Source: Pseudomonas alcaligenes (lineage in GTDB: Bacteria; Pseudomonadota; Gammaproteobacteria; Pseudomonadales; Pseudomonadaceae). From it: 64,000 nucleotides of DNA. Each line of letters begins with the position of its first letter. Position 1 is the first letter of the stretch. Below, one piece after another: positions 32,074 to 59,036 of this stretch. Position numbers and translations under genes: made by a program. The stretch lies in contig NZ_LZEU01000001.1 of assembly GCF_014490745.1 (NCBI RefSeq), forward strand, positions 4,677,501-4,741,500. Direction: 5' to 3'. The notes below the pieces were generated by a model that made no database searches, was not told the DNA's origin, and was given only the letters and a program-made list of their open reading frames with translations.

Positions 32074-33324
32074 TTATTTGCGGGTGAACTCCGGGTAGGC
32101 CTCCATGCCGCACTCGGCGATGTCGACCCCTTCGTATTCGTCCTCCTCGCTGACACGCAGGCCCATGGCCAGCTTGATCAGCGCCCAGACCAGCAGGCTG
32201 GCCAGCAGCACCCAGGAGAAGATGCAGGCGGCGCCCATCAGCTGCGCGCTGAAACTGGCCGCCGGATTGGTCAGCGGCACGGCCAGCAGGCCCCACAGGC
32301 CGCCGGCGCCATGCACCGAGATGGCCCCCACCGGGTCGTCGAGACGCAGGCGATCAAGCAGCAGGATGCTGAACACCACCAGCACGCCGCCGACCGCCCC
32401 GATCAGGGTCGCCTGCACCGCCGTGGGCGTGCCCGGCTCGGCGGTGATCGCCACCAGGCCGGCCAGGGCGCCGTTGAGCACCATGGTCAGGTCGGCCTTG
32501 CCGAACAGCAGGCGCGCCACCACCAGCGCCGCCAGCAGGCCACCGGCTGCGGCCAGGTTGGTGTTGACGAACACCGCCGCCACCGCGTTGGCATCGGCGA
32601 TGCTGCTGATCTTCAGCTGCGAGCCGCCGTTGAAACCGAACCAGCCGAACCAGAGGATCAGGCAGCCAAGGGTCGACAGCGGCAGGTTGGCCCCCGGGAA
32701 GGCGTTGATCTGGCCGTTGGGGCCGTACTTGCCCTTGCGCGCGCCGAGCAGCATCACCCCGGCCAGGGCCGCCGTGGCGCCCGCCAGGTGCACCACCCCG
32801 GAGCCGGCGAAGTCCTTGAAGCCGGCGTGCTTGAGGAAGCCGCCGCCCCAGGCCCAGTAACCCTCGAGCGGGTAGATCACCCCGCACATGAGCACCGCGA
32901 AGGCGAGGAACGCCCACAGCTTCATGCGCTCGGCCACCGCCCCGGAGACGATCGACATGCAGGTGGCGGTGAACACCACCTGGAAGAAGAAATCGGCGCG
33001 CTTGGCAAAGACCGGCGCACCCTCGCCACCGGCGGCCACCGTCGCCACCGCGTGTTCGTCGCCAATCAGGAAGCCCAGACCGGGCAGCACGCCGCCCGGG
33101 GCGCCGCTGTACATCAGGTGGTAGCCCAGCAGCAGGTACATGACGCAGGCCAGGGCATACAGGACGATGTTCTTGGTGAGGATCTCGGCAGTGTTCTTGG
33201 CCCGTACCAGACCCGACTCGAGCATGGCGAAACCGGCCGCCATCCACATCACCAAGGCACCGCAGATCAACAGGTAGAAGGTGTCGAGCGCATACTGCAG
33301 GGGAATCAAAGCCGTACTTTCCAT
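32074..33324 (-). CDS. amtB: Ammonium transporter, paralogue 1
   Basis: A 416-residue channel of the Amt/MEP/Rh family with eleven membrane helices. Key features are LVMWMAAGFAMLESGLVRAKN (first helices), GSGVVHLAGATAALAGVMLLGARKG and AISVHGAGGLWG; the His residues in the latter two correspond to the twin-His pore pair. It lacks the cleaved signal peptide of the second copy, beginning MESTALIPLQYALDTFYLL. It is 91 bases from the next amtB but separated from it by a terminator, so it probably has its own promoter. It is more divergent than the glnK-linked copy and may have a different partner or affinity. Confidence 0.9.
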   Translation of the reverse strand: MESTALIPLQYALDTFYLLICGALVMWMAAGFAMLESGLVRAKNTAEILTKNIVLYALACVMYLLLGYHLMYSGAPGGVLPGLGFLIGDEHAVATVAAGGEGAPVFAKRADFFFQVVFTATCMSIVSGAVAERMKLWAFLAFAVLMCGVIYPLEGYWAWGGGFLKHAGFKDFAGSGVVHLAGATAALAGVMLLGARKGKYGPNGQINAFPGANLPLSTLGCLILWFGWFGFNGGSQLKISSIADANAVAAVFVNTNLAAAGGLLAALVVARLLFGKADLTMVLNGALAGLVAITAEPGTPTAVQATLIGAVGGVLVVFSILLLDRLRLDDPVGAISVHGAGGLWGLLAVPLTNPAASFSAQLMGAACIFSWVLLASLLVWALIKLAMGLRVSEEDEYEGVDIAECGMEAYPEFTRK

Positions 33325-33375
33325 GGGCACTCCTTTGTACCTAAGGCCCCGCACCGCCATTGGCGCGGACAAAAA

Positions 33376-33397
33376 AACGCCCGGCGTACCGGGCGTT
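33376..33397 (-). terminator. Terminator of the glnK-amtB operon
   Basis: ACGCCCGG/CCGGGCGT stem with a four-base loop. On the minus strand it is followed by seven T residues, so it ends the glnK-amtB transcript before the upstream amtB paralogue. Confidence 0.85.
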
Positions 33398-33415
33398 CTT
33401 CAACTCAGCTAAGGC

Positions 33416-34732
33416 TTACAGGTTGTAGCCGCGCTCGTTGTGCTCGGCGAGGTCGAGACCCACGGTCTCGACTTCTTCGCTCACGCGCAGGCCCATCACC
33501 AGATCCAGCACCTTGAGGATGACGAAGGTCACCACGGCGGTGTAGACCACGGTGAAGGCGACACCCTTGAACTGGGTGAAGACCTGGGCACCGATGTCTT
33601 CCACGGTACCGAAGCCGCCCAGGGCCGGAGCGGCGAACACGCCGGTCAGGATGGCACCGACGATACCGCCGATGCCGTGTACGCCGAAGGCGTCCAGGGA
33701 GTCGTCGTAGCCCAGCTTGCGCTTCAGGCTGGTGGCGCAGAAGAAGCAGATCACGCCAGCGGACAGACCGATCACCAGGGCACCCATCGGGCCGGCGGTG
33801 CCAGCAGCCGGGGTGATGGCAACCAGGCCGGCAACTACACCGGAGGCGATGCCCAGGGCGCTCGGCTTACCGTGGGTGATCCACTCGGCGAACATCCAGC
33901 CCAGGGCGGCAGCAGCGGTGGCGATCTGGGTAACCAGCAGGGCCATGCCGGCGGTGCCGTTGGCGGCCACTGCGGAGCCGGCGTTGAAGCCGAACCAGCC
34001 GACCCACAGCATGGCGGCGCCGACCAGGGTCAGACCCAGGTTGTGCGGAGCCATCGGGGTGGTCGGGTAGCCTTTGCGCTTGCCCAGTACCAGGCAGGCC
34101 ACCAGGCCGGCGATACCGGCGTTGATGTGCACCACGGTGCCGCCGGCGAAGTCCAGCACGCCCCAGTCCCACAGCAGGCCGCCGTTACCGGACCAGACCA
34201 TGTGGGCGATCGGTGCATAGACCAGGGTGAACCACACGCCCATGAAGATCAGCATGGCGGAGAACTTCATGCGCTCGGCGAAGGCACCGACGATCAGCGC
34301 CGGGGTGATGATGGCGAAGGTCATCTGGAAGGTGATGAACACGCTTTCCGGAATCGCATAGGTCAGGCTGGAAGTGGTCAGGCCGCTAAGGAAGGCCTTG
34401 GACAAACCGCCGACGAAGGAGTTGAAGTTGACGACGCCCTGCTCCATGCCGGTAACGTCGAAAGCCACGCTGTAGCCGTAGATGACCCACAGCACGCTGA
34501 TCAGACCGGTGATGGCGAAGCACTGCATCATCACCGACAGAATGTTCTTGGATCGCACCATGCCGCCGTAGAACAGCGCCAGGCCGGGGATGGTCATGAA
34601 CAGCACGAGGGCGGTGGCGACAATCATCCACGCGGTGTCACCGCTGTTCAGTACAACCTCGTCCGCCATGGCGATGCCGGGGGTAACGAGGGACAAAAGG
34701 GCTCCAAGCCCTGCGAATTTACGCAGAGTCAT
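33416..34732 (-). CDS. amtB: Ammonium transporter, glnK-linked
   Basis: A 438-residue Amt protein with a cleavable signal peptide (MTLRKFAGLGALLSLVTPGIAMA) and the canonical helices. Landmarks are GLALFYGGMVRSKNILSVMMQ, FAGGTVVHINAGIAGLVACLVLGKRKG and FGVHGIGGIVGAILTGVFA, the last two supplying the pore histidines. The cytoplasmic tail (GLRVSEEVETVGLDLAEHNERGYNL) is the GlnK-contact region. The adjoining glnK, 35 bases upstream, is the PII protein that blocks the pore when nitrogen is plentiful. Confidence 0.95.
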   Translation of the reverse strand: MTLRKFAGLGALLSLVTPGIAMADEVVLNSGDTAWMIVATALVLFMTIPGLALFYGGMVRSKNILSVMMQCFAITGLISVLWVIYGYSVAFDVTGMEQGVVNFNSFVGGLSKAFLSGLTTSSLTYAIPESVFITFQMTFAIITPALIVGAFAERMKFSAMLIFMGVWFTLVYAPIAHMVWSGNGGLLWDWGVLDFAGGTVVHINAGIAGLVACLVLGKRKGYPTTPMAPHNLGLTLVGAAMLWVGWFGFNAGSAVAANGTAGMALLVTQIATAAAALGWMFAEWITHGKPSALGIASGVVAGLVAITPAAGTAGPMGALVIGLSAGVICFFCATSLKRKLGYDDSLDAFGVHGIGGIVGAILTGVFAAPALGGFGTVEDIGAQVFTQFKGVAFTVVYTAVVTFVILKVLDLVMGLRVSEEVETVGLDLAEHNERGYNL

Positions 34733-35821: not shown

Positions 35822-36685
35822 ATGTCCCTGGCCATAGTCCACAGCCGCGCCCAGGTCGGCGTCGAGGCGCCCGCCGTCACGGTCGAGGCGCACCTGGCCA
35901 ACGGCCTGCCGAGCATGGCCCTGGTCGGCCTGCCGGAAACGGCCGTGAAGGAAAGCAAGGATCGCGTACGCAGCGCCCTGCTCAATGCCGGTTTTGATTT
36001 CCCGCCCCGCCGCATCACCCTGAATCTGGCGCCCGCCGACCTGCCCAAGGACGGCGGGCGCTTCGACCTGGCCATCGCCCTCGGCGTGCTCGCCGCCAGC
36101 GGCCAGATCCCCGCCGCCGGCCTGGCCGAACTCGAATGCCTGGGCGAGCTGGCCCTCTCCGGCGAACTGCGTCCGGTGCAGGGCGTGCTGCCGGCGGCGC
36201 TGGCCGCCCGCGCCGCCGGCCGCACCCTGGTGGTGCCGCGGGCCAATGCCGAGGAGGCCAGCCTGGCTTCCGGGCTGCCCATCCTGGCTATCGACCATTT
36301 GCTGCAGATCGCCGCCCACCTCAGCGGCCAGACACCGCTGGCGCCGTATCAGGCCAGCGGCCTGCTGCGCAGTGCCGCGCCCTACCCGGATCTGGCCGAC
36401 GTGCAGGGCCAGCTGGCTGCCAAGCGCGCCCTGCTGATCGCCGCCAGCGGTGGGCACAACCTGCTGTTCAGCGGCCCGCCGGGCACCGGCAAGACCCTGC
36501 TGGCCAGCCGCCTGCCCGGCCTGCTGCCGCCACTCGACGAGGCCGAAGCCCTGCAGGTCGCCACCATCCACTCGGTGGCCAGTGCCACGCCACTGACCAG
36601 CTGGCCGCAACGGCCCTTCCGCCAGCCGCACCACAGCGCCTCGGGGCCGGCCCTGGTCGGCGGTGGCTGTCGGATTTTGAATTAG
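35822..36685 (+). pseudogene. comM: comM (yifB) 5' fragment, interrupted by island
   Basis: About 282 native codons of the Mg-chelatase-like helicase ComM are present: the Lon-protease-like N-terminal domain (SLAIVHSRAQVGVEAPAVTVEAHLANGLPSMALVGLPETAVKES) and the AAA+ Walker A FSGPPGTGKTLLASRLPG. Native comM then continues past GPALVGGG into the Walker B half (normally SDPRPGEI...FLDELPEF). Here the frame instead meets CRILN and a stop at 36685. ComM promotes branch migration during natural transformation, so its loss should reduce uptake of long heterologous DNA. The missing 3' half should lie at the far end of the island, beyond the window. Confidence 0.95.
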
Positions 36686-36933
36686 CTGCGAAATTATCGA
36701 AATAAATGCGAGCGCCAGAAGGGGTCACAGACCTCCTGAAGCCTTGCTGCTGCCGAGGACCAGCTGATCCGTCGCGCCTTGCAACGCCTTAGCTATCCAG
36801 TCTTCTCCTGGCGGTTGGGTGTGTGGGCCTACTCGACCATGTCTATTAGTAAAAAACTGCCTGGAGGTTATTTGCGCCAGCCGCAAAAGGGTTGTATTTT
36901 TATACAGTAAATGTCCGAATTTCAGACACAGCC
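36686..36933. other. Island left-end non-coding stretch
   Basis: These 248 bases carry the AT-rich element end and no complete gene. One plus-strand frame stays open from about 36737 to 36909 (SLAAAEDQLIRRALQRLSYP...), but it lacks a start codon. It could be a remnant of a truncated gene; its opening loosely resembles RadC-type proteins. It is too short to name. Confidence 0.35.
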
Positions 36934-37209
36934 ATGCCTACTCTTAAGCAGCAAATCGAAGATGTGCTCGGGAATTTCTGGGATGAACGTGAAATTTCGA
37001 TCACCAGCGATCCCGCAACTGTCGATGAATTGGGAGCGCCACTCGATTCCTTGACAGCCTGCGAAGCCATGATTGAGATCGACGCACTGGTTCAAAGAAA
37101 AGTCCCAGTTGATGTAGTGATCCGAAACGGCGGCTATGAGTCAAAAGAGCAATTCATTCAGCAGATCACTGAAGGGGTACTCAAGTACCTGGGTGAGAAC
37201 AATGGGTGA
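36934..37209 (+). CDS. Small protein of the XRE/ImmA operon, unknown
   Basis: A 91-residue soluble acidic protein (MPTLKQQIEDVLGNFWDEREISITSDPATVDELGAPLDSLTACEAMIEIDALVQRKVPVDVVIRNGGYESKEQFIQQITEGVLKYLGENNG). No known domain is recognised; the alternating charged helices suggest a small regulatory or antitoxin-type fold. An upstream in-frame TTG exists, but the ATG at 36934 is preferred. It overlaps the XRE gene by eight bases, indicating co-translation and a shared role. Confidence 0.6.
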   Translation: MPTLKQQIEDVLGNFWDEREISITSDPATVDELGAPLDSLTACEAMIEIDALVQRKVPVDVVIRNGGYESKEQFIQQITEGVLKYLGENNG

Positions 37210-37552
37210 TAGCGGCGTTGAAGACGATAGAGTACAACTCGCCGAGCGGCTCCGTGCTGCGCGCGAGTATGTTGGCCTTTCGCAAGCCGATGTAGCTCAA
37301 GTCCTCGGAGTGGGGCGCACCGCTATCACTGGCATTGAAACTGGTACGCGGAAGGTTGAAGCAGTCGAATTAAAGACCTTGTCACGCCTATACCGACGCT
37401 CAGTAGATTACTTGCTGACCGGCGGAGAACCTGAGCACTCTGGCCCAGAGCAGCTGGCTTTTCTCGCCCGTGCGATCAATGGACTGACAGAAAAAGATGT
37501 AACCGAAGTGGCTCGGTTTGCTGATTTCTTGAGGGCTTCGAAAGTCAGTTAG
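37202..37552 (+). CDS. XRE-family helix-turn-helix regulator
   Basis: A 116-residue repressor-type protein. The HTH domain (~14-68) reads VQLAERLRAAREYVGLSQADVAQVLGVGRTAITGIETGTRKVEAVELKTLSRLYRRSVDYLL. A short helical tail (FLARAINGLTEKDVTEVARFADFLRAS) follows. XRE plus ImmA/IrrE pairs commonly form a repressor and the protease that inactivates it in mobile elements. The ImmA-like gene follows ten bases later with an AGGAGAAATGG ribosome site, so the pair is an operon. Confidence 0.88.
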   Translation: MGDSGVEDDRVQLAERLRAAREYVGLSQADVAQVLGVGRTAITGIETGTRKVEAVELKTLSRLYRRSVDYLLTGGEPEHSGPEQLAFLARAINGLTEKDVTEVARFADFLRASKVS

Positions 37553-37561
37553 GAGAAATGG

Positions 37562-38578
37562 ATGCTCTCATCAGCTCAGATCGCAGCGGCCACCAACCGC
37601 GCCGCCGAAGTACTGAGAGACTCAGGCGCGAAAGAGCGGATCGAAAAGGACGGCTACACAAGAATTAATCCTTTTCGTGTCGCAGAGTTTGCCGATGTTT
37701 TAGTGATGCTGCGCCCGATGGATAAGCTCTTGGGAGCTTTTATTCGCCAGGAGCAATCCGGAATCCTTTTGAACTCCGAGCGGCCGGCGGGCCTGGTCCA
37801 GATGACCTGTGCCCATGAGCTGGGACATTTCTTCCTGAATCACGGCACCACGGCTGATGACCGGCTGGACTATGCGCCAACAGCAGGCAGGCAGGAACTG
37901 GAAGCCGATTGGTTTGCGTACAGCTTGATCGCACCTCGGTGGGCTATCGCGCGCATCATGCGCAGAAAGAATTGGTCTCGAAATCATCTCTGCCACCCTT
38001 TCTACCTGTATCAACTCTCTTTGCGGCTTGGGATCAGCTACAAGGCCGCAGCATGGTCACTGAACCGCCTAAAATTGCTGGAGCGCACAGAGGTCGACAC
38101 GCTTCTGAGGACGCAGCCAGCAACCATCAAAAAGTCCTTACTCCATTCTCCATTGGAGAATCCTCATAGAGATGTGTGGCTGATCGATGAGGCGGATCAG
38201 GACCTGATACTCGAACCGCGCGTGGATGATCAGATGCTTGTGCGCCTGAGGAACCATTCTTCTGCAGGCTACGTCTGGACAGCCGATGAGGCTATGTCCG
38301 AGGGGTTCTTGATTGAGCCGCTACTTATTCCGCCAGGCCAACGAGCTGATAAAGACTCGACAATAGGCGGCGGGGTTAGCGTTCAGGATTACTTGATCAC
38401 GCAGGCCCCCCTCGCAAAACCAGAGCCGGCTCAGCTGAATCTTTCGGAGCGAAAACCTTGGAGCCCGGATTCTGGAGCGATTGCTAACTACAGCACCCAG
38501 GCCAGCTTCGAACACCTTGATCCAGGGCTCTCCCCGGCAGCCAAGGAAAGTCTGCTCCGGAGTGCAAACCAATCGTGA
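37562..38578 (+). CDS. ImmA/IrrE-type zinc metallopeptidase with C-terminal extension
   Basis: A 338-residue protein. The N-terminal ~150 residues carry the ImmA/IrrE (DUF955) peptidase signature, with HELGH at 85-89 and QELEADWFAYSL at 111-122 supplying the third ligand. ImmA-type enzymes cleave XRE repressors in response to stress, here probably the upstream XRE protein. A long C-terminal half (DVWLIDEADQDLILEPRVDDQMLVRLRNH...) has no recognised domain and is unusual for the family; it may sense a ligand or recruit a partner. The stop overlaps the next gene by four bases (GTGA). Confidence 0.85.
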   Translation: MLSSAQIAAATNRAAEVLRDSGAKERIEKDGYTRINPFRVAEFADVLVMLRPMDKLLGAFIRQEQSGILLNSERPAGLVQMTCAHELGHFFLNHGTTADDRLDYAPTAGRQELEADWFAYSLIAPRWAIARIMRRKNWSRNHLCHPFYLYQLSLRLGISYKAAAWSLNRLKLLERTEVDTLLRTQPATIKKSLLHSPLENPHRDVWLIDEADQDLILEPRVDDQMLVRLRNHSSAGYVWTADEAMSEGFLIEPLLIPPGQRADKDSTIGGGVSVQDYLITQAPLAKPEPAQLNLSERKPWSPDSGAIANYSTQASFEHLDPGLSPAAKESLLRSANQS

Positions 38579-39192
38579 TTCACTCTTACGCGCAGCTGCA
38601 GATACCCGCACGCGATCAAGGTGCAAGGCAGACCTGTGTGGCATTTTCTATCGCAGGTATCCAAGGCTACTTTGCTCAGCACTGCCTCAGCCCAGAGTTT
38701 GCCTACCATGCTACTGCTCTGCAGTCTCCAAGCTGGCAGCCTGACCAGGGATTGGATGTGCGGGTAGCCGTAGTTGCAACGGCTCCGGGACTACCGGAGG
38801 AACAGTACGTCCCGTACCAACCTACCGATCCTGTTCCTCCGATACCGCCATTGCCCACTGTGCAACGCTTGCATGGGCCTCAGTTGACTCTAACGCGCGT
38901 AATTCCTGCCGCCATCACCGGATGTATACAGGCAGGCTTCCCTGTCGGTGTCCTGATTGCGCTTACCCAATCATTTATGACGCCCGTAGATGGGGTGGTG
39001 GCATTCCAACCCAACGTCTATCCAGGGTTACACGCCGTTGTGATCATCGGGCATGGGGCGGATAACGAAACTGGGGAGCCGCACTATCTGATTTGCAACA
39101 GTTGGGGAACCGGCTGGGGTCTCAATGGACACGCGTGGATCTCGGAAACCTATCTCGTGCAGCACGCCACTTGGGCATACGGAGTGATTTGA
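38575..39192 (+). CDS. Papain-like (C1-type) cysteine peptidase
   Basis: A 205-residue protein with the C1 peptidase triad. The oxyanion Gln and catalytic Cys are in DQGARQTCVAFS (Q15, C21), the His in GLHAVVIIGHG (H153), and the Asn in ICNSWGTGWG (N175). The last is the most typical motif of papain enzymes. No signal peptide is present, so the enzyme should act in the cytosol. The start is GTG inside a GTGA overlap with the metallopeptidase, and its own stop overlaps the next start by one base. Two proteases of different mechanism side by side suggests a proteolytic activation cascade. Confidence 0.8.
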   Translation: MIHSYAQLQIPARDQGARQTCVAFSIAGIQGYFAQHCLSPEFAYHATALQSPSWQPDQGLDVRVAVVATAPGLPEEQYVPYQPTDPVPPIPPLPTVQRLHGPQLTLTRVIPAAITGCIQAGFPVGVLIALTQSFMTPVDGVVAFQPNVYPGLHAVVIIGHGADNETGEPHYLICNSWGTGWGLNGHAWISETYLVQHATWAYGVI

Positions 39193-40022
39193 TGGCAGAG
39201 GTCTTTAAACGGTCCAGAGTGGTGCCCGCTTGGTTAGCGGCTTCTCGCCATCTAGCTAACCGACCTGATCAGGAGGATCGCAACGTCATCCTTGAGATTG
39301 CCTCTCCACAAGAGATCACGGCAGAAGACTACCGAGTCATTGCCGCGGTGAATCAAGCGCTGCAGCAGGTTCGTGCCGACAGGACCGTGATGACTGCCGC
39401 TGGCACAATTTTTCCCCAACGAATCTACCAATACTATGGGCGCCCCCAATGGTATGAAAAATACGAGGAAATAATTGCCCACGGAAAGGCCAAGAATACC
39501 TGGGGTACCTATGCGCACCGCATGATCAGCAGATCAGCGCCTGATGGCACCACCTTCAATCCACTGGAGAAGATCATCGAGAAGCTCGCTTCTCGTAAGG
39601 ATCCTGCTCAAACCCAGTTCAAAGCCGCGTATGAGCTGAGCACAACGGATATAGGCGCAGACCTGTTTGATGCGGGATTCGAACTACCCACCTATGACCC
39701 TGCCATAGATCGCGCTAGCTATATGGGCTCGCCGTGCTTGAGCCATCTAACGTTCAAGATGATAGGCGACAAGATTGATCTGACCGCTATCTACAGATCC
39801 CACTACTACGCGGAGCGAGCGCTAGGAAATCTAATCGGCCTGGCTCAATTGCAAGGGTACGTTGCTAAAGAGGCGGGATTCGAAACCGGCGTTCTCACGT
39901 GCGTATCGACACACGCCAAATTGGACAAAGGGCTGGGAGGGATCGTCTCGGCGCGCCGGCTGCTCGCGTCTTCGCCAGAGGACATTGACGTTAGAGCAGC
40001 TGCGCCTGCGCAGCCCGCTTAG
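39192..40022 (+). CDS. Thymidylate-synthase-like protein, divergent active site
   Basis: A 276-residue protein. Its C-terminal half aligns by eye with thymidylate synthase and dUMP/dCMP hydroxymethylases: a Cys in YMGSPCLSHLTFKM (C182, position of the catalytic Cys), IDLTAIYRSHYYAERALGNL (residues 195-214), with R202, S203 and N213 in the positions of the nucleotide-binding Arg-Ser and Asn, and H241 in VSTHAKLD. The Asp that normally follows RSC is a Tyr here (Y205), and the usual Tyr after the H-x motif is changed to Lys. It may therefore act on a different pyrimidine nucleotide or only bind one. The N-terminal ~100 residues are not recognised. Its 3' end overlaps the convergent UDG-like gene by 32 bases. 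Confidence 0.72.
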   Translation: MAEVFKRSRVVPAWLAASRHLANRPDQEDRNVILEIASPQEITAEDYRVIAAVNQALQQVRADRTVMTAAGTIFPQRIYQYYGRPQWYEKYEEIIAHGKAKNTWGTYAHRMISRSAPDGTTFNPLEKIIEKLASRKDPAQTQFKAAYELSTTDIGADLFDAGFELPTYDPAIDRASYMGSPCLSHLTFKMIGDKIDLTAIYRSHYYAERALGNLIGLAQLQGYVAKEAGFETGVLTCVSTHAKLDKGLGGIVSARRLLASSPEDIDVRAAAPAQPA

Positions 40023-40668
40023 TGCCTAGCAAGCCATCGGATATTCCGTAGATCTTGCTCATCCCCGCTCGGAAGTCTTTCACTCCGCCGTAACTAGGAT
40101 GGCGCACACAAACTACTTCAACACCAAAGGCCGCCGCATAAGCAGCAGCGTCCTGTCCAATGGCTACGATACGACGAACCTTCAACCACTTGATTAGGGC
40201 CTTGTTGAGATCACGCACGGCGTCCAGCTCACGGGCAGTAAACCGACGGTTAGTGAACGGATTCTGGGCTTCATGGGGGTGGAAGGGGAACACATTCCAT
40301 AGCAATGGCGGCGCGTCGATAGCCTTCAACACCCCCCATATTTCTGCCGCGGTTCGCTCAGCAATAGCCGGCCCGCGAGTAGCCTGGCGCGAGGCACAAC
40401 CTGGATAGACCTTCGCCATCTCCGGCAGGTGGTATTCATCCGTCAGCGCCAACCCAGTCCTACGCCCTCCTCGGTAGCCGAGGTCACGCCCCATCCAGAT
40501 CGTGTCCACTCCAATGTCAGCTGAAGCAGCAAGATACGCACGTAAATTCGCTCGGCGAAATGCAGCGGCATCGGATCGGTCATGCACCGGACAAGTGTCC
40601 GAGTAGGGATTGAACACGTTATCCAGAGACAGGCCGGCAAGCGCTTTGACGAATGAGGTCGGGGTCAT
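39991..40668 (-). CDS. Uracil-DNA glycosylase superfamily protein
   Basis: A 225-residue protein with the motif order of the UDG superfamily. The first motif region is MGRDLGYRGGRRTGLALTDE (59-78), followed by LLWNVFPFHPHE (122-133). The final catalytic-loop motif is VRHPSYGG (188-195), with the conserved His-Pro-Ser. Family members excise uracil or other damaged bases, and some act on single nucleotides or cross-linked DNA. This one is outside the well-known family 1 type and lacks visible Fe-S cysteines in the canonical spacing. It starts in an ATGA overlap with the MazG-like gene, so the two are co-translated. Confidence 0.78.
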   Translation of the reverse strand: MTPTSFVKALAGLSLDNVFNPYSDTCPVHDRSDAAAFRRANLRAYLAASADIGVDTIWMGRDLGYRGGRRTGLALTDEYHLPEMAKVYPGCASRQATRGPAIAERTAAEIWGVLKAIDAPPLLWNVFPFHPHEAQNPFTNRRFTARELDAVRDLNKALIKWLKVRRIVAIGQDAAAYAAAFGVEVVCVRHPSYGGVKDFRAGMSKIYGISDGLLGTKRAAQAQLL

Positions 40669-41885
40669 TGATTTGCGGTTACTTTCGGTTTGAAGGTCAA
40701 TTCGTGGTTGACCATATCAACGATGACTGTACCCGTGCGTGCACTCTGCAACTCACGGAAAATCTCAAAGCCCTTAAGGATGGCCAGCTCCCATTGCCAG
40801 AGTGGGCACTTGTGAACCTCGTACCCTTCGACCATCGAGTGAATCTGCTTAAGCAGACCGTATTCGAGTGATCCTACCTTGATTCCCTTGTAGAAACGTC
40901 GACGCTTCGCGTGATTGAAAATCCAAGTCGCGATGCCCTCTTCGATGATCATTGCGCGGGCGCCATCCTCATTCTCGTCCACGCTGGGGACCGACTTACG
41001 CTTGCGTTTCAGAAGGCCACGCAGAACGGGCGACCATCCCAGATAGGCTATGTAGGCGAGGTGGAAAACGTCATGGAAGCGGTAGTCATCCGGCTCGTTA
41101 CTATTATCCGTCAAACGGTCGCCGATGAAGACACCGTTCAGCTGCTGAACGACGTAAGTACCCCCACTGCTGGCTCGCTCGATGAAATCCATTTCGAGTC
41201 TGCGAGGAAACTGCTCATAGTCGTGGAAGAGCTCGTCAGGATCAAAGAATGGGTAGAAGACCGGGTTCTCACCGGGCCATCGGCTCTTGATCTTTTCGAG
41301 GTTGTCTCTAGCCACATCCTCAATATGAAGGTTGAAGCTTGCACAACAGAGCGCCAGTTCGGTGAGCAGCGTGCCGAAGTGGTTGAGCAATGTTGGAGTC
41401 GGGGTCGCCTGCAGCTGGGTGTCCGTCGAGAAGGTAAAAGCTCCGGCCGCATGAGCCAGAGCACTCATCTGGACGGTTCGCTTGATCGTTCCATCTTCGC
41501 GCCGGGTATCGATAAGCGCGTCAATCTGACGAAAGCTGATAGGAATGATCGGCTCGCGTTCATTCTCCTTGAAGCGACGCCGTAGCTCCTTCAGGCAATA
41601 AATGCCTAGGTCGTCCGGAGTGATGTTGAGGTGTGTTGCCGCACTGACGAGGTACCAAAGAGCATCGCCAAGCTCCTCAGCCGCGACCTCACTTTGAGTG
41701 TCCTCAAGGCGATCTCGATCAGCTTTCTTCACTGACGACAGAAGACCACCAACCTCACCAAAAAAACCAAATCTCAGGCTTTGGAAGCCAGTAGGTTTGT
41801 CCTTCAGACGCGAGCTTTCATTTGCCTTAAGGGAGTATTCGGGTAGGGAAAGAGGCTCGACTTGCTGCTTGGCTACAGGTGCCAT
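40665..41885 (-). CDS. MazG-like nucleotide pyrophosphohydrolase, multidomain
   Basis: A 406-residue protein. The first MazG-like domain (residues ~35-110) has the metal-binding pattern FGFFGEVGGLLSSVKK and EVAAEELGDALWYLV. A second MazG-like half (TLLTELALCCASFNLHIEDVARDNLEKIKSRWP) lacks the acidic cluster and may be structural. The C-terminal domain contains YRFHDVFHLAYIAYLGWSPV and EEGIATWIFNHA, seen in a subset of MazG-type proteins. MazG enzymes hydrolyse (d)NTPs to (d)NMP and pyrophosphate, often non-canonical ones. The ATG at 41885 is fixed by AGGAGG five bases upstream. It overlaps the DUF4031 gene by 59 bases. Confidence 0.78.
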   Translation of the reverse strand: MAPVAKQQVEPLSLPEYSLKANESSRLKDKPTGFQSLRFGFFGEVGGLLSSVKKADRDRLEDTQSEVAAEELGDALWYLVSAATHLNITPDDLGIYCLKELRRRFKENEREPIIPISFRQIDALIDTRREDGTIKRTVQMSALAHAAGAFTFSTDTQLQATPTPTLLNHFGTLLTELALCCASFNLHIEDVARDNLEKIKSRWPGENPVFYPFFDPDELFHDYEQFPRRLEMDFIERASSGGTYVVQQLNGVFIGDRLTDNSNEPDDYRFHDVFHLAYIAYLGWSPVLRGLLKRKRKSVPSVDENEDGARAMIIEEGIATWIFNHAKRRRFYKGIKVGSLEYGLLKQIHSMVEGYEVHKCPLWQWELAILKGFEIFRELQSARTGTVIVDMVNHELTFKPKVTANQ

Positions 41886-42192
41886 GGATCCCTCCTGGTT
41901 CGAGCAGCAACGATTGCTGCTGTGTCCTTTGAGCAAGCATTTCAGCTCGCATCTGCTTGCAGCATCCAATAATAGTTTTCCGGTCAGCGTCGATAGCGCC
42001 AAGCTGAATCGCGCGCGCTCTGACTGACAAGGTCACGTCGTAGTGAGGGTAAAAGCTTTTGCTTTGGAACCATTTGCGCTGCAAGCCCAACTGAGCCGCA
42101 AAGTGATGGAGCTCGTCAAGGGTGTCGGCAACTAGGTGGCACCAGGAACGTCCTTTCCAGCGCACTTCCTCGGAATCAACGTAAACAGGCAT
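41827..42192 (-). CDS. DUF4031 domain protein
   Basis: A 121-residue protein with the DUF4031 opening MPVYVDSEEVRWKGRSWCHLVADTLDELHHFAAQLG and the segments KWFQSKSFYPHYDVTLSVRARAIQLGAID. The conserved His/Asp residues could be catalytic, but the family has no known function; members are often phage- or plasmid-borne. It is first in the minus-strand operon and starts just left of the palindromic operator. The 3' third overlaps the MazG-like start in a different frame. Confidence 0.75.
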   Translation of the reverse strand: MPVYVDSEEVRWKGRSWCHLVADTLDELHHFAAQLGLQRKWFQSKSFYPHYDVTLSVRARAIQLGAIDADRKTIIGCCKQMRAEMLAQRTQQQSLLLEPGGIHGTCSQAASRASFPTRILP

Positions 42193-42214
42193 GGCATGGC
42201 TTGTCCGTGCAAAA

Positions 42215-42233
42215 TGTGCATTTAATATGCACA
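42215..42233. promoter_or_regulatory. Palindromic operator between DUF4031 and XRE genes
   Basis: TGTGCATTTAATATGCACA, a near-perfect 19-base palindrome (arms TGTGCAT/ATGCACA). It lies between the divergent starts at 42192 and 42236, two bases before the XRE start. It is the natural binding site for that XRE protein, which could repress both itself and the DUF4031-MazG-UDG operon. Confidence 0.65.
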
Positions 42234-42235
42234 TT

Positions 42236-42580
42236 ATGACACAAAGACTCAATGCCGCAGCTGCGCAAAATCTAGGATTGCGCATCCGCGAAGCACGAAT
42301 TAATCGAGGGCTAACGCTTACAGAGCTTGGCTTTCTGACGAACGTGCACCACTCACAGCTCTCGCGCGCCGAGCAAGGCAGATTCTCGCTCGTCAGCAAA
42401 AACATTTCTGCAGCTTGCACATTTTTGCAAATTTCACCTCAAGCCATCACCAGTGATCTACCAGAACACCTGATCGCTCGGGTGAAGCACCTGGTAACTT
42501 CATCTCCTTCGCACGCACGGGTGCTTGAGCGAATCCTGGATGCTCTTGAGGAACTCCCCCTGGCGTCGACTGCTGAGTAA
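42236..42580 (+). CDS. XRE-family helix-turn-helix regulator, second
   Basis: A 114-residue protein with an HTH domain near residues 10-70 (LGLRIREARINRGLTLTELGFLTNVHHSQLSRAEQGRFSLVSKNISAACTFLQIS). A short helical tail (HLIARVKHLVTSSPSHARVLERILDALEEL) follows. It is divergent from the DUF4031-MazG-UDG operon with a palindrome in between, fitting an autoregulated repressor of that operon. In-frame Met codons further upstream overlap the palindrome, so 42236 is the more likely start. Confidence 0.82.
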   Translation: MTQRLNAAAAQNLGLRIREARINRGLTLTELGFLTNVHHSQLSRAEQGRFSLVSKNISAACTFLQISPQAITSDLPEHLIARVKHLVTSSPSHARVLERILDALEELPLASTAE

Positions 42581-42653: not shown

Positions 42654-43247
42654 CTAGAACGCCGGCACCTCGCTAGGGTCACGGACCTGCAGGTTACGTG
42701 AACAGGGGCGGAAAGCCATGTTGGACGTTCCTGGCGGAGAAACGCACAGAGTGAGTACCGCTCCGTAGGGCATCTCGACACCACGCACCACGCCATAGGG
42801 GATCTCGGCTACTCGATTAATTTCCCCATCCCCCGTCAACACATCTACACCCGGTGCAACTGCTTGGCCCAGGCTGTGCCCGAATGCCTCGCGCCTGACC
42901 TCCTTGCTAATTTGGTAGGTAAGTGCGACTTGAATTTTCGCGCTAGAAGGACCCACATCGAGAATGGTGATTCTGCTGAAGAGGTCCAGGATGCCGGTGG
43001 CACATGCAGTCATCTCGGCATTGCAGTGTCTAACTGCCAGAGGCTGGTAACGAAGCTCCCGGCTTGCATCCGCAATCCCAACAAGGGTCTCGTTCATTCC
43101 GAGCCCTGCCGAAGCTGGGCCCGACAGCTCTGTTGTTCCTCCGAAGAAGTCGACTACTACAGCCTGCTGAGCAGCAGACTTAACGCCCGCACATCCTGAA
43201 AGCGCAGCCAGCGCAATGGCAATTCCGACACCAACCATGTGTTGCAT
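42654..43247 (-). CDS. Predicted lipoprotein, unknown function
   Basis: A 197-residue protein with a lipoprotein signal peptide ending in LSGC (Cys at residue 19). The mature part (VKSAAQQAVVVDFFGGTTELSGPASAGLGMNETLVGIADASRELRYQ...) contains a segment CSPPGTSNMAFRPCSRN with two cysteines. No domain recognised. Its flanks (an XRE regulator, then a candidate RNA) give no clear function. It reads away from the next gene. Confidence 0.6.
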   Translation of the reverse strand: MQHMVGVGIAIALAALSGCAGVKSAAQQAVVVDFFGGTTELSGPASAGLGMNETLVGIADASRELRYQPLAVRHCNAEMTACATGILDLFSRITILDVGPSSAKIQVALTYQISKEVRREAFGHSLGQAVAPGVDVLTGDGEINRVAEIPYGVVRGVEMPYGAVLTLCVSPPGTSNMAFRPCSRNLQVRDPSEVPAF

Positions 43248-43426: not shown

Positions 43427-43521
43427 ACGGTTTCCCTGAAACCTCCCTGCGGCAAGGATGCCGCTGCCCCTTCGGGGGCCTCTATTCAGAAGCCCCGTCT
43501 TATGGCGGGGCTTCGTCTTTT
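43427..43521 (+). ncRNA. Candidate small structured RNA, four hairpins
   Basis: A promoter-like pair (TTGATC at 43393, 16-base spacer, TAGAGT at 43415) is followed by four tandem perfect hairpins. These are GGTTTC/GAAACC; GCGGC-AAGGAT-GCCGC, whose AAGGAT loop is an RsmA/CsrA-type A-N-GGA site; GCCCC-TTCG-GGGGC with a UUCG tetraloop; and a ten-base-pair AAGCCCCG... stem with T-rich tail TCTTTT as an intrinsic terminator. No open frame accounts for it. This layout supports an ~95-nt sRNA or the leader of the phosphatase gene 54 bases downstream. No Rfam family is recognised by eye. Confidence 0.6.
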
Positions 43522-43574
43522 GGCAAACAGGCCGGCTTCAACACGATGCTGAAAGACGCTTTCCGGAGAGCTCT

Positions 43575-44372
43575 ATGGACTGCTTAGAGTTACTAGCGCC
43601 AGTAACCGATAACGTGCTTTCTGTGGGCAAGCTATTGGCTGCCGAATGGGATCGACCTGATGGGCCAAGAGGCCACGGAGATAAGGCAAAAGTCGACGCA
43701 GAGATTGAGTCAGCACTGCGCGAAAACCTGCTCAATTTGCTCCAATGCGATTTCTGGGGAGAGGAGACGGGGGCATGTCTGTCGGGTCACGAGTACTGCT
43801 GGGTGGTTGACCCCAATGACGGGACCAGCGATTTCCTCTTGGGTCGCAAGGGGTCGGCAATTTCAGTTGGCCTACTGCGCAACGCTTCACCTGTTCTGGG
43901 TGTCGTCTATGCGCCTGTCACAGTAGATCGAGGCCCTGATTGCATTTCTTGGGCAGAAGGATCCGCAAGCCCTATCCGGAATGGGCACGCAGTACTATCC
44001 CGATTGGACCAGCAGGGGTTAAGAGCAGGCAGTCATGTGCTGGTGAGCGCGGCTGCAGCTACCAAGCCCGCAATCAACGCTGAACTTTGTGCACCGGCTG
44101 ACTTTATCCCAATGCCAAGCATTGCCTATCGACTGGCTCGCGTAGCTGCTGGTGATGCTGTCGCGGGTATTTCACTTGTACCAGTGTCAGCCCATGACGT
44201 GGTTGGAGGGCACGCATTACTGAGGGGCGCTGGTGGCGTGTTGCTCGACCAATCTGGGATAGAGATTTCCTACGACTCTGGCGTTCTGGCGGACGTGGCC
44301 TTGCGGGTTTTTGGCGGCGCGCCTAGTGCATGCAGAGAGCTGACCGGCAGGAGCTGGGAAAAGCTTTTCTGA
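43575..44372 (+). CDS. Inositol monophosphatase-family phosphatase
   Basis: A 265-residue protein with the IMPase metal-site pattern: GEE at 62-64, the Asp-rich VVDPNDGTSDF at 77-87 (family DPxDGT), and a C-terminal SAHDVVGGHALLRGAGG near 205-221. In most members this last motif is WDxxAG; here the Trp is His. Substrates may be inositol phosphates, 3'(2'),5'-bisphosphate nucleotides (CysQ type) or sugar phosphates. Within an island near nucleotide-handling genes the CysQ activity is of interest, but this is inference. TCCGGAGAG precedes the ATG. Confidence 0.75.
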   Translation: MDCLELLAPVTDNVLSVGKLLAAEWDRPDGPRGHGDKAKVDAEIESALRENLLNLLQCDFWGEETGACLSGHEYCWVVDPNDGTSDFLLGRKGSAISVGLLRNASPVLGVVYAPVTVDRGPDCISWAEGSASPIRNGHAVLSRLDQQGLRAGSHVLVSAAAATKPAINAELCAPADFIPMPSIAYRLARVAAGDAVAGISLVPVSAHDVVGGHALLRGAGGVLLDQSGIEISYDSGVLADVALRVFGGAPSACRELTGRSWEKLF

Positions 44373-46713: not shown

Positions 46714-47613
46714 TCACCGCCGCGACATAAGCCTGCAACGCCGCGGCAATGCTCGGCTACGACCCTCTCGGTATTCACGGATCGCACGCTCCAGATCGGC
46801 AGCAGAATTCATGACGAACGGACCACATCGACAGATGGGAGCATCTAGAGGGTCCCCGCCAACAATGAGGAGCTCGGCTCCCTTATCGGTACTCAGGCGA
46901 ATTTCCCCCTCAGAGGACAGCCGAGCGAGTTGACCGGCTTCGACCACTTGCCCGTCCATGACGACATCCCCCACCATCACATAGAAGGCCAGCTCCTTTG
47001 CACCATCCGGGGCCAATACGATGCCGCCTCCAGCCGCAAGAGTCGTGTGTGCCACGAACGGTGAGCCAGTTGTGGCAATTGGGCCCTCATGCTTATCCAG
47101 TCGGCCAGCTATCAGACGTGTACGCCCTCTGCCATCGGCGGCTTCGAGCACCGGAATCTCTTCAGCCCGAATATGTCGATAGCTCGGCTCATCGTGCTTG
47201 TTAGCCTTCGGCATATTGAGCCATAGCTGAATGCCGTGAAATCGCCCCCCGGTACGGCGCATCTCATCATCTGGGCACTCCTCATGAATCACGCCACGCC
47301 CGGCGCGCAGCCACTGCACCTCACCTGGCCGCATGCTGCTCACATTGCCAAGACTATCTTTGTGCCATGCGATTCCGTCGAGTAGTAGCGTCAGCGTCTC
47401 AATACCAGCATGCGGGTGGGCAGATGCCCCCTTCGCCTCACCTGGGCTAACGTCAAGCGGCCCGAAATGATCGAGAAAAATGAAGGGGCCAATTGCTTCG
47501 AAACTCTGCGCAGGAATAGCACGCCGAACTTCAAAACCGTCGCCCTCGAGCGTGTGGAGCGCGTCGTGAATGGTCATGACGACCCGAGCCTGCATGTTCG
47601 AACTGTTGCTCAT
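46714..47613 (-). CDS. Pirin family cupin protein
   Basis: A 299-residue protein of the pirin family. The N-terminal cupin holds the metal site in GPFIFLDHFGPLDV, HPHAGIETLTLLLDG and LRAGRGVIHEECP. The second, degenerate cupin covers ~170-270. Bacterial pirins bind Fe or Ni, and some dioxygenate flavonols such as quercetin. Here it lies at the distal end of the meta-cleavage cluster and may handle a phenolic intermediate or quench by-products. The Met at 47613 is preferred; GGAG lies upstream. Confidence 0.88.
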   Translation of the reverse strand: MSNSSNMQARVVMTIHDALHTLEGDGFEVRRAIPAQSFEAIGPFIFLDHFGPLDVSPGEAKGASAHPHAGIETLTLLLDGIAWHKDSLGNVSSMRPGEVQWLRAGRGVIHEECPDDEMRRTGGRFHGIQLWLNMPKANKHDEPSYRHIRAEEIPVLEAADGRGRTRLIAGRLDKHEGPIATTGSPFVAHTTLAAGGGIVLAPDGAKELAFYVMVGDVVMDGQVVEAGQLARLSSEGEIRLSTDKGAELLIVGGDPLDAPICRCGPFVMNSAADLERAIREYREGRSRALPRRCRLMSRR

Positions 47614-47690
47614 CGCCTTGCTCCATGGTTGCAGTGGCCAGCTCAGAGCCGACAGCAGCATCCAGCTGTGGGCTCTAGCTGAGCGTGAAT

Positions 47691-47713
47691 AAAAGGCCGC
47701 CCCGGAGGGCGGC
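47691..47713 (-). terminator. Intrinsic terminator after the DUF1302-DUF1329 genes
   Basis: On the minus strand a GCCGCCC-TCCG-GGGCGGC stem is followed by CTTTTATTC, 38 bases beyond the DUF1329 stop. It separates that transcript from the pirin gene. Confidence 0.75.
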
Positions 47714-47750
47714 AAGGTCTCGGGCTTGTGGCCTTTGACGGAGTAGCCTG

Positions 47751-49118
47751 TTAGCGAATGCCAGAAGTGCGTAGCGCGGCCGCGGTGTATTCCGCGGTGC
47801 CCGTGGTGAAGCCGAACTGCAGCGGCTCTTTTTCCTCGTTGCGCATACCGGAGACGATGTAGCGGCCGTTGATCAGGTCATACAGAGCCTCAGTGCCCAG
47901 CCAAGGGATCTGCAGGTCGTACATCGGCCCGATATGGCCTTCAGCGACGCGCCACAGTGTGCCTCGGGAGTCGTAGTGGTCGGCCAGGGAAATCTGCCAG
48001 GTATCTTCGTCGATATAGAAGATCCGCTTGGAGTAGATGTGCCGCTCACCAGGTTTGAGAGTTGCCTCGACCTGCCAGACTCGGTGCAGTTCGTAGCGGG
48101 TCAGATCCGGGTTGATATGCCCAGGTTTGACGATATCTGCATACTTGAGGTCCGGTGCATCGAGCCGGTAGCTGTTGTAAGGGATGTAGATCTCGCGCTT
48201 GCCCACCAGCTTCCAGTCGTAGCGATCCGGTGCCCCGTTGTACATGTCCAGGTTATCCGCAGTACGCTGTCCTTCGGAGGCCGGATAGGGGCCGTCGTAG
48301 GAGATCTGCGGGGCACGGCGCACGCGACGCTGGCCGGAGTTGTAGATCCAGGCCATGCGCGGCTCTTTCACTTGGTTGAGGGTTTCGTGCACCAGAATCA
48401 CGTTACCCGCTTCGCGGGCTGGCGCTGTCACCAGTTGCTTGTAGTAGAACAGCACATTGCCCGGATTCGCCGGATCGAAGTCAGCGACACGATCCCGGAA
48501 GGTAAACTGGTCCTTGAAGTGCACTGGCACGAAGGTTCCATTCGCCAGCGGCGTGGCCTGTATATGACTGCGTTTGACGCTGCCACCACGGTAGCGGGTG
48601 ATGTGGTTCCACACTACTTCCAAACCATTTTGCGGGATCGGGAAGGGCACAGCCGTGCTGAAATTAGCCAAGCCGTTGCCCCCTTCGATCATGGAGGTCT
48701 TAGTCGCGTTCGCTTTGGCGGCCTGGTAGACGAAGTCGGGCGCGTTGGCACTGCGGTGGCTGGGATAGACTGTCAGCTTGTAAGTGCTGGGGTAGCGCTT
48801 AAGCATCGCTAACTGCCCAGGGCTCAGCTTGTCCTGGTACTGCGCTACATTCTGCGCGGTGATGGTGAACAGCGGCTGCTCATTGGCGAAGGGGTTACTG
48901 AGGAAGCCGGCGGCATCCCGGCTACCAGCATCCTTGGGCAGACCGCCGGTCCAGGCGGGAATGGTGCCATCTGCGTTGCCGGCCATTTCGGCACCCATTG
49001 GTGTGAGCGAGGTCCCTAGTTGCTTGGCCTGCTCGGCACTGACTGCGGCAAAGGCGGACTGGTAGGCAAGGCCGAAGGTCAAGGCCAGTGAATGCGCCAG
49101 GATGACTGTCTTTTTCAT
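47751..49118 (-). CDS. DUF1329 outer-membrane-associated protein
   Basis: A 455-residue exported protein with signal peptide (MKKTVILAHSLALTFGLAYQSAFA) and DUF1329 core. Recognisable segments are LTPMGAEMAGNADGTIPAWTGGLP, YPSHRSANAPDFVYQAAKANATKT, FKDQFTFRDRVADFDPANPGN and WQVEATLKPGERHIYSKRIFYIDEDTWQ. It resembles LolB/outer-membrane lipoprotein-sorting folds and almost always pairs with DUF1302. The pair is typical of clusters for hydrophobic substrates. It is 16 bases downstream of the DUF1302 gene. An in-frame Met 15 bases earlier is less favoured because GGAG sits nine bases before 49118. Confidence 0.88.
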   Translation of the reverse strand: MKKTVILAHSLALTFGLAYQSAFAAVSAEQAKQLGTSLTPMGAEMAGNADGTIPAWTGGLPKDAGSRDAAGFLSNPFANEQPLFTITAQNVAQYQDKLSPGQLAMLKRYPSTYKLTVYPSHRSANAPDFVYQAAKANATKTSMIEGGNGLANFSTAVPFPIPQNGLEVVWNHITRYRGGSVKRSHIQATPLANGTFVPVHFKDQFTFRDRVADFDPANPGNVLFYYKQLVTAPAREAGNVILVHETLNQVKEPRMAWIYNSGQRRVRRAPQISYDGPYPASEGQRTADNLDMYNGAPDRYDWKLVGKREIYIPYNSYRLDAPDLKYADIVKPGHINPDLTRYELHRVWQVEATLKPGERHIYSKRIFYIDEDTWQISLADHYDSRGTLWRVAEGHIGPMYDLQIPWLGTEALYDLINGRYIVSGMRNEEKEPLQFGFTTGTAEYTAAALRTSGIR

Positions 49119-49133
49119 GCGAGTGGACTCCAC

Positions 49134-51065: not shown

Positions 51066-51509
51066 CACTGCCTCTTGTTGTTGTCATGAGTGCTGCGCTG
51101 CTCTTTTTCGGGACGAGCCAACCCGCACGAACCAACCAATGGCTTGATTGGTCCGCTTATTCGGAGCGGTCAGAGAGGTTGGCTACTTTCTCGCCGGTGG
51201 AGACTGAGAGCGTTCCAAAGCACGAATCCGCTGAGAAAAGACTCCCGGGAGGGAACCCGACTTTTCCTCTAAGGCATACGTGAGGCACCTGCTCTCGTAG
51301 TCGCATCTGATGCCCGACAAGGTCGACAGAGCGTAGGGAGGGCGAGACATCTTGGGGCCGGGCAGCATGTGCGGTATTGAGACTGAAATCGCCAACTCAT
51401 CACCTCTCTGGGAGCATGCTCCCCGATACCTGACGCCACCCCTACTAGGTATGGCTTCAACACAAGAACGAAAACTCACCCAGCTGCACTAGCCATCGCC
51501 GCAGCAGAG
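51066..51509. promoter_or_regulatory. Promoter region of the DUF1302-DUF1329 operon
   Basis: A 444-base gap with no gene. It contains a perfect inverted repeat, ACCAAT-N6-ATTGGT, at 51135-51152, about 70 bases before the DUF1302 start. It is a likely regulator-binding site, perhaps for one of the two TetR proteins. The left part, toward the ligase stop, holds nothing I can identify. Confidence 0.45.
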
Positions 51510-54532: not shown

Positions 54533-54533
54533 C

Positions 54534-55625: not shown

Positions 55626-55720
55626 ATTATCCTCGGCTGCCATTTTCATGGCGAACTTAGTGGATGCATTAGCCTGCCTTATGGTCGGCTCGTGATTTCA
55701 GTAAAAATATGGCAATCCCA

Positions 55721-56848: not shown

Positions 56849-56885
56849 ATCGATCACCGTTACTCTAGTTCTTTGGTTTCCGAGA

Positions 56886-57263
56886 CTAGAAGCTTCGCGC
56901 CAGCTTCAATACCTCATTGAGCCACATTCCAATTAAGAAGCTCCCTTGAAGCTCACATCGCCCATCTTCAAGAGCTCTCAACAACTCTGTCTCGTCGCGG
57001 TTCAACATCACCGACACTGCATCTTTTGCCCTTCTCCAGCGCTGAGAAAAATCTGGCAATGGATGTTGTCCCAGATGCATTTTCAATCGAGCGCCACGCA
57101 ATTCTAGATAAGCTGCTGCGCCGTCAGATGTGCAAACTTGAAATACGAACGGCTTTTCTTTGAGCAATTGTTGAATGCGAGAATTTTTTTTGCTGGCTCG
57201 CCGCACAAGAAAAGTAGAAACCCACAGCAGGCAGTAAAGTTTTAGACTTTCGATAGCTTTCAT
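56886..57263 (-). CDS. SCP2-like sterol-transfer-type small protein
   Basis: A 125-residue protein with a hydrophobic N-terminal segment (LYCLLWVSTFLV). A fold resembling SCP2 follows (FVFQVCTSDGAAAYLELRGARLKMHLGQHP, and CELQGSFLIGMWLNEVLKLAR, the usual C-terminal lipid-cavity helix). SCP2-type domains bind sterols or acyl lipids. If correct, it implies a hydrophobic, possibly steroid- or alkyl-chain-bearing substrate. Two bases separate it from the upstream monooxygenase gene. Confidence 0.5.
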   Translation of the reverse strand: MKAIESLKLYCLLWVSTFLVRRASKKNSRIQQLLKEKPFVFQVCTSDGAAAYLELRGARLKMHLGQHPLPDFSQRWRRAKDAVSVMLNRDETELLRALEDGRCELQGSFLIGMWLNEVLKLARSF

Positions 57264-57265
57264 TA

Positions 57266-58909: not shown

Positions 58910-58999
58910 CACCTGGCCCTCTACAACGGTTAATCGGCTAGTACGGCTCACGACCCCAGACAACCTCTGCCTCGAGCCACCTGACACTACCTTCCACCA

Positions 59000-59036
59000 T
59001 AATGAGACATCTGTCAACATGACAGTTACCTCATAA
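59000..59036. promoter_or_regulatory. Long inverted-repeat operator between monooxygenase and TetR gene
   Basis: Two 17-base half-sites (TAATGAGACATCTGTCA at 59000-59016 and TGACAGTTACCTCATAA at 59020-59036) match in 13 of 17 positions as an inverted repeat around 59018. It lies between the divergent monooxygenase and TetR starts. This placement and symmetry fit a TetR operator that controls both. Confidence 0.7.

Follow-up and report, generated by a model that had tools for sequence, protein, structure and literature searches.

The Pfam families HMUDK_hel (5-hydroxymethyldeoxyuridine (5-hmdU) DNA kinase, helical domain) and MazG_C are linked to phage thymine hypermodification. Among the regulators of bacterial immune operons, CapH and CapP are described as a repressor and the single-stranded DNA (ssDNA)-activated protease that cleaves it (PMC13373217, PMC10904395). 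The available text on DefensePredictor names MazG, MazG-C and UDG among the domains of predicted defence systems, and thymidylate synthase and 5-hydroxymethyluracil kinase are among the domains of its validated systems (PMC13092281). Here we describe a cassette that brings such components together in Pseudomonas alcaligenes, in a stretch of 64,000 nucleotides (contig NZ_LZEU01000001.1, positions 4,677,501 to 4,741,500), the whole of which we call the window. Its conservation as a unit, the pairing of a chagasin-family domain with a papain-like (C1) protease, the linkage to a phosphopantetheinyl transferase, the operator-like site and the mobility were all computed. With slightly better than even confidence, we read the cassette as a mobile, stress-gated, nucleotide-modifying conflict system of the CapH/CapP type, probably directed against phages.

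A nine-gene cassette with a conserved core

The cassette is real; of its nine genes, a core is conserved in fixed order. Coordinates are window positions and genes were taken as simple open reading frames (ORFs); on this basis a plus-strand operon (36934-40022) and a minus-strand operon (42192-39991) overlap tail to tail by 32 bases (39991-40022). The genes, the order in which they stand and the way they overlap agree with an earlier reading of this DNA (the original prediction), and the case for the cassette is stronger than was claimed there; the earlier reading missed the carrier identity of the first gene, the chagasin domain and the Tn7-like element. We compared 76 loci. GTDB species genomes, scanned for sequence patterns, supplied 55 of them; tblastn of plasmids gave 23 matches, of which 20 were used and 3 (H9-H11) lay outside the set; and the window completes the number. 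The 55 loci are not a prevalence, because the scan was limited to relatives with one of two exact peptide patterns; at a threshold of E 1e-3, 443 homologues of the thymidylate-synthase-like (ThyA-like) protein were counted, and 120 of these were listed.

By local profile searches, the genes for the carrier-like, XRE, M78, C1 and ThyA-like proteins are all present in 60/76 loci, beyond chance. The original prediction is supported in that the genes recur together, and the gene offsets across loci follow the order carrier-like, CapH-like (XRE), M78, C1, ThyA-like. The XRE position is partly imposed, because XRE genes were counted solely 800-3200 bases upstream of the ThyA-like gene and other genes within 6 kb; use of the longest ORF puts the XRE start ahead of the carrier start in L028 and L062. 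Counts for single genes are 76/76 for ThyA-like, which holds by construction, then 70 for M78, 69 for CapH-like, 63 for C1, 62 each for carrier-like and MazG, 45 for UDG-like, 30 for DUF4031 and 23 for HMUDK_hel. These loci cannot be counted as independent, since L039/L040, L043/L044 and the plasmids from sphingomonads resemble near copies; L077 is a partial match, and certain contigs stop within the cassette. Grouped by record titles, the hosts are gamma-, beta-, alpha- and deltaproteobacteria, together with Acidobacteriota, Myxococcota, Bdellovibrionota, Verrucomicrobiota, Nitrospinota, Chloroflexota, Planctomycetota, Actinomycetota, Cyanobacteriota and the archaeon Haloarcula; megablast gave no match in E. 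coli genomes.

UDG-like and HMUDK_hel genes are mutually exclusive (45 versus 23 of the 76 loci, shared by none, neither in 8). Among the HMUDK_hel loci, MazG is found in 17/23 and a phosphopantetheinyl transferase in 14/23. All 30 loci with DUF4031 (30/76) are beta- or gammaproteobacterial, where the UDG-like form usually comes with DUF4031, and a divergent second XRE gene is present in 26/30 of them. Alphaproteobacterial loci have either the UDG-like gene without DUF4031 (14/23) or HMUDK_hel (9/23).

A CapH/CapP-type switch with an operator-like site

The XRE repressor and M78 protease genes are adjacent and match the PADLOC models capH and capP. The M78 family profile, searched against the PDB, finds CapP (chain 7t5t, E 3e-8) and IrrE (3dte, E 4.9e-9), and the HExxH residues His85, Glu86 and His89 are kept in 27/27 rows. 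Throughout, rows refer to alignments of 45 of 120 listed homologues for ThyA-like, 27 of 51 for M78, 25 of 49 for the carrier, 19 of 34 for UDG-like, 22 of 46 for MazG and 25 of 50 for C1.

Upstream of the carrier gene, the palindrome TGTACGATTTTCGTACA occurs with at most 5 mismatches in 57/62 loci, as against 138/4500 random windows, which include true sites; three loci match it exactly, and the consensus was spotted by eye in the same loci, which favours it. Operon 1 has a conserved operator-like palindrome at its promoter. As had been suggested, a regulator-protease half probably controls expression. We rejected the site as one shared with the minus operon, because at most 5 mismatches were found in only 4/30 DUF4031 and 3/32 MazG regions; several minus-operon promoters hold another palindrome, similar to TGTGCAAATATTATGCACA.

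The M78 protein carries a chagasin-family domain that is paired with the C1 protease

Positions 211-314 of the M78 family profile match amoebiasin-2, a member of the chagasin family, at E 1.3e-12 in the PDB profile search, and Pfam I42 is matched by 23/27 family members at E 0.05. Within this domain Gly236 and Trp300 are kept in 27/27 rows and the motifs GYxW and RPW are present; in L027 the M78 and chagasin parts are two neighbouring ORFs. The C1 protein keeps Gln15, Cys21, His153 and Asn175 (catalytic triad plus oxyanion Gln) in 25/25 rows and, because only 14 residues precede Gln15, the window protein is without a propeptide. Chagasin and C1 are found together in 63 loci, each alone in 0, and M78 with neither in 7 (Fisher p 8e-10, with relatedness ignored, with both profiles built from these same loci, and with the 7 C1-less loci stemming from few lineages). 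A Pfam check agrees, as no I42 was found in 6 of the 7 C1-less loci (L042 lay outside the scan) and I42 was found in the C1-bearing Haloarcula protein. This domain pairing suggests that the chagasin domain keeps the C1 protease inactive.

A pairing of inhibitor and protease, carried as here by a Tn7-like element and by conjugative plasmids, could also belong to a stabilisation (addiction) module, in which a protease toxin, its chagasin inhibitor and the repressor serve the mobile elements to maintain themselves. We consider this quite unlikely, since the linked enzymes would exceed what addiction needs and the 7/70 M78 loci that are without C1 and chagasin still keep the XRE, M78 and ThyA-like genes.

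The first gene resembles an acyl carrier protein

The product of gene 1 is carrier-like. Its Ser39 is invariant in 25/25 rows and is preceded by Asp or Glu in 24/25, and the top PDB matches of the family profile are acyl carrier proteins, although these are weak (best E 0.013) and chains of other kinds, one a nickel-responsive regulator and one named as a hydrolase, also come in below E 1. Three Streptomyces records name homologues of gene 1 acyl carrier protein, and the Streptomyces homologue L060 matches Pfam PP-binding at E 1.2e-7; the Nostoc and Haloarcula homologues (L058, L061) gave no Pfam match. Moreover, a phosphopantetheinyl transferase gene lies within 6 kb in 20/76 loci, and is annotated as such near the cassette in Haloarcula, Bradyrhizobium, Rhizobium and Sinorhizobium.

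A carrier-like protein with a linked transferase would also suit a gene cluster that makes a nucleoside-like secondary metabolite, with both acting as in peptide or polyketide pathways. This seems highly improbable to us, because in the annotated plasmid loci no adenylating enzyme or exporter regularly accompanies the cassette, and a CapH/CapP-type switch with a protease-inhibitor pair is atypical of such clusters.

Enzymes of nucleotide chemistry

The ThyA-like protein of the window has no Pfam match, and reaches E 1e-13 and 51.3 bits with the thymidylate synthase model TIGR03283, below its cut-off of 174.55. Its Cys182, Arg202 and Asn213, which align weakly with the catalytic Cys, the phosphate Arg and the base Asn of the host ThyA, are invariant in 45/45 rows. 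The residue opposite the Asp of thymidylate synthase is Tyr, His, Trp or Phe, and the chemistry is for this reason probably altered with respect to thymidylate synthase. We rejected ordinary housekeeping thymidylate synthase and UDG as an account of these genes, a possibility that the original prediction had raised against itself: separate ThyA and UDG genes are present elsewhere in the host, and the ThyA-like gene is sporadic, with 6/398 genomes in the genus holding it when the host genome is counted (E 1e-20).

In the MazG domain the second ExxE position is Gly, Ser, Leu or Ala and never Glu in 22/22 rows, ExxE being the usual metal-binding motif of MazG NTP pyrophosphohydrolases. In MazG_C, on the other hand, Asp295, His310, Asp311, His314, Asp346, Arg349, Glu354 and Glu355 are invariant (22 rows). 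Hence MazG_C is the better catalytic candidate and the likelier active module of the two, as judged from these residues. The UDG-like family keeps its HPS residues in 19/19 rows, and Pfam UDG is matched at E 0.05 by 6/19 members (best 1.1e-5); its profile gave no useful alignment with 20 canonical UDG-family proteins.

In the original prediction, the ThyA-like and MazG-like proteins could change or police the pool of a pyrimidine, and the UDG-like protein could find a modified or uracil base in invading DNA and remove it. The pyrimidine-nucleotide theme is borne out by dCTP-deaminase-like genes (within 6 kb in 11/76 loci) and HMUDK_hel (23/76), and the presence of the UDG-like gene in 45/76 loci, its HPS residues and the retained thymidylate-synthase-type residues all speak for the proposal. 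However, policing of the pool by MazG is doubtful as stated, because the second ExxE Glu is found in 0/22 rows; detection of uracil is unlikely to be a shared core function, because the UDG-like gene is present in 45/76 loci only and HMUDK_hel in 23 others; and neither the carrier protein nor the chagasin/C1 pair has a place in it. As a whole we regard this explanation as distinctly unlikely.

DNA hypermodification, in which a C5-modified thymine analogue would mark the DNA of the mobile element or of the host itself, draws on the same HMUDK_hel and dCTP-deaminase-like genes, on relatives of the L068 Pfam-type thymidylate synthase in 7/76 loci, and on one HMUDK_hel protein that bears the annotation of DNA base hypermodification. 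Yet the window form is without HMUDK_hel, no constant DNA-acting partner such as a nuclease is seen in the annotated plasmid loci, and a repressor-protease switch would fit a response that is induced better than marking that is always on; we find this reading unlikely.

The cassette is cargo of a Tn7-like element

In a Tn7-like element of ∼39.6 kb, inserted in a comM-like gene, the cassette is the first cargo. The element spans from window position 36668 to position 12268 of L002 (genome about 4714168-4753768), and genes for TnsA, a DDE transposase, TniB and TniQ lie at its right end, which together with the inverted ends and the target duplication identify it as Tn7-like. The frame on the left side of the boundary resembles ComM, and a match to Mg_chelatase_C lies ∼40 kb beyond the left boundary; GC content drops from 0.67 (32-34 kb) to 0.55 (38-40 kb). 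Elsewhere, 14/23 of the plasmid records are typed conjugative. No match to the ThyA-like protein was found by tblastn among 50,697 phage records; one viral contig, L139, matched, with genes for carrier-like, M78-chagasin, C1, ThyA-like, Pfam thymidylate synthase and HMUDK_hel proteins.

The cargo also holds a likely catabolic cluster (46714-59020) with Pirin, DUF1329, DUF1302, AMP-binding, FAH, glyoxalase and FAD-binding genes. Three transposon genes are without a Pfam match at E 0.001 (L002 6150-7598, 1883-3433 and 4315-6141). An AAA_21 ATPase gene lies at 60817-62661, and ATPases of this family are common in defence contexts. Two adjacent ammonium-transporter-like genes, recognised by eye, lie to the left of the element (32074-34732).

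Defence-type neighbours

On plasmids, the cassette has defence-type neighbours, among them Shedu, caspase-family, CHAT, SIR2 and ABC-3C genes. We scanned 130/281 flank ORFs from 29 loci, and as a control 130/227 ORFs from five relatives, with PADLOC models at E 1e-10. The flanks matched 74 families, with Lamassu, Gabija and HerA among the matches listed at 1 to 3 proteins each, and the control matched 7, at 1 protein each, the viperin and mad models included; these family counts are not protein counts. Because many models match the same protein and the control taxa differ, the comparison is a pointer and not a test of the suggested enrichment near defence genes. Three of the 130 scanned flank ORFs are DNA gyrase B genes (L003 7973-10393 among them), perhaps an insertion hot spot.

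Features of the window

Among the window proteins, those with HTH, Peptidase_M78, Peptidase_C1, MazG_C (E 5.2e-79) and DUF4031 (E 4.5e-26) passed the Pfam cut-offs, and the MazG domain was marginally below (21.7 versus 22 bits). The start of the MazG gene in Table 1 was picked by eye from the upstream AGGAGG. Genes to the right of the cassette, at 42654-43247 and the adjoining inositol-phosphatase-family gene at 43458-44372, were rejected as parts of it, as among 58 sequences compared they occur in the window only.

Table 1. Cassette genes, candidate sites and left element end, in window positions
Feature	Position	Strand	Basis or remark
GTGGC, left copy of 5-bp target duplication	36663..36667	strand-neutral	Other copy follows L002 12268
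Left terminal repeat of Tn7-like element (22 bases compared)	36668..36689	+	Inverted right copy at L002 12247-12268, 4 mismatches
Palindrome TGTATTTTTATACA, possible second operator-like site	36893..36906	strand-neutral	Read from window sequence only
TGTCCGAATTTCAGACA, operator-like site of operon 1	36912..36928	strand-neutral	4 mismatches to TGTACGATTTTCGTACA
Acyl-carrier-like protein, 91 residues	36934..37209	+	Ser39 invariant; without Pfam match
CapH-like XRE repressor	37202..37552	+	Pfam HTH; PADLOC capH E 1.9e-10
CapP/IrrE-like M78 protease with C-terminal chagasin-family (I42) domain	37562..38578	+	Pfam Peptidase_M78; PADLOC capP E 1.6e-12; family profile
Papain-like (C1) protease	38575..39192	+	Pfam Peptidase_C1; Gln15, Cys21, His153, Asn175
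Thymidylate-synthase-like (ThyA-like) protein	39192..40022	+	TIGR03283 below cut-off; Cys182, Arg202, Asn213
UDG-superfamily-like protein	39991..40668	-	Weak Pfam UDG; motifs GRDLGYRGG, HPSY
MazG domain + MazG_C domain protein	40665..41885	-	Pfam; Gly/Ser/Leu/Ala at second ExxE position
DUF4031 protein	41827..42192	-	Pfam
Palindrome TGTGCATTTAATATGCACA, between DUF4031 and second XRE genes	42215..42233	strand-neutral	Read from sequence; several relatives hold similar palindromes
Second XRE regulator, divergent from minus operon	about 42236-42580	+	Pfam HTH

Proposed mechanism

In the conflict-system reading that we favour, the CapH-like repressor would keep operon 1 off at the conserved palindrome until ssDNA or a similar cue of infection or damage leads the CapP-like M78 protease to cleave it, by analogy with CapH/CapP. 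The chagasin domain of the M78 protein would, as the domain pairing suggests, restrain the propeptide-less papain-like protease until this switch. The carrier-like and ThyA-like proteins, with MazG_C and the UDG-like protein or HMUDK_hel, would then act on uracil (deoxy)nucleotides, so that a modified nucleotide is made or the pool is drained and phage replication fails. We infer the trigger, the substrate, the product and the antiviral outcome of this scheme.

A more specific form of it is tentative and on the unlikely side. Thiol capture by thymidylate synthase is known, and in a carrier-dependent antiviral pathway the ThyA-like protein could form a reactive C5-methylene on a uridylate that is captured by the phosphopantetheine thiol of the carrier; the protein-tethered nucleotide would be processed by MazG_C and the UDG-like protein or HMUDK_hel, and the chagasin-held papain-like protease would control its release.

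Several points weigh against a nucleotide-modifying conflict system. The profile alignment of the ThyA-like family with the host ThyA is weak (probability 5, E 0.0077, 106 columns), the assignment of the window UDG-like protein to Pfam UDG is weak too (E 0.021, 15.4 bits versus a cut-off of 24.3), and PDB profile searches with either family found no chain at E 0.1. Gene 1 of the window has no Pfam match, and the window M78 protein alone gives I42 at E 0.044, below the Pfam cut-off. The chagasin domain may bind C1 as a sensing input and not as an inhibitor. Moreover, no phenotype is known for any cassette member, the PADLOC comparison of the flanks is rough, and the element is not purely defensive because of the catabolic cluster in its cargo.

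If the reading is right, conflict systems would gain two features that were not met among the literature matches listed: a carrier protein of the phosphopantetheine type and, joined to a switch of the CapP type, a pair of chagasin and papain. MazG_C, HMUDK_hel, UDG-like and ThyA-like proteins would moreover be tied to one conserved cassette across many bacterial phyla and a halophilic archaeon. Among the titles and abstract openings of the literature matches listed, there was no description of this gene combination.

Comparison with known systems

The likeness to the CapH/CapP regulators of cyclic-oligonucleotide-based antiphage signalling systems (CBASS) and other immune operons lies in an XRE repressor and an adjacent M78 protease that head the operon. 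The cassette differs in that its M78 protein ends in a chagasin domain where C1 is present, and in that a carrier-like gene stands ahead of the repressor; unlike CapH/CapP-regulated CBASS, none of its products matched a PADLOC model for a CD-NTase, among ten window proteins scanned.

An overlap with one of the systems predicted by DefensePredictor is possible; the available text of that work names no carrier protein or chagasin, and ImmA and cysteine protease are absent from its main text (PMC13092281).

With the enzymes of phage thymine hypermodification the cassette has the Pfam families HMUDK_hel and MazG_C in common, whereas its ThyA-like protein is unmatched in the phage records and it adds the carrier-like protein and the CapH/CapP-type switch. 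With the protozoan chagasin-family inhibitors of papain-like proteases it shares the I42 domain and the motifs GYxW and RPW; in contrast to these, I42 of the cassette is fused to a metalloprotease, and its presumed target is encoded alongside, in bacteria and in an archaeon.

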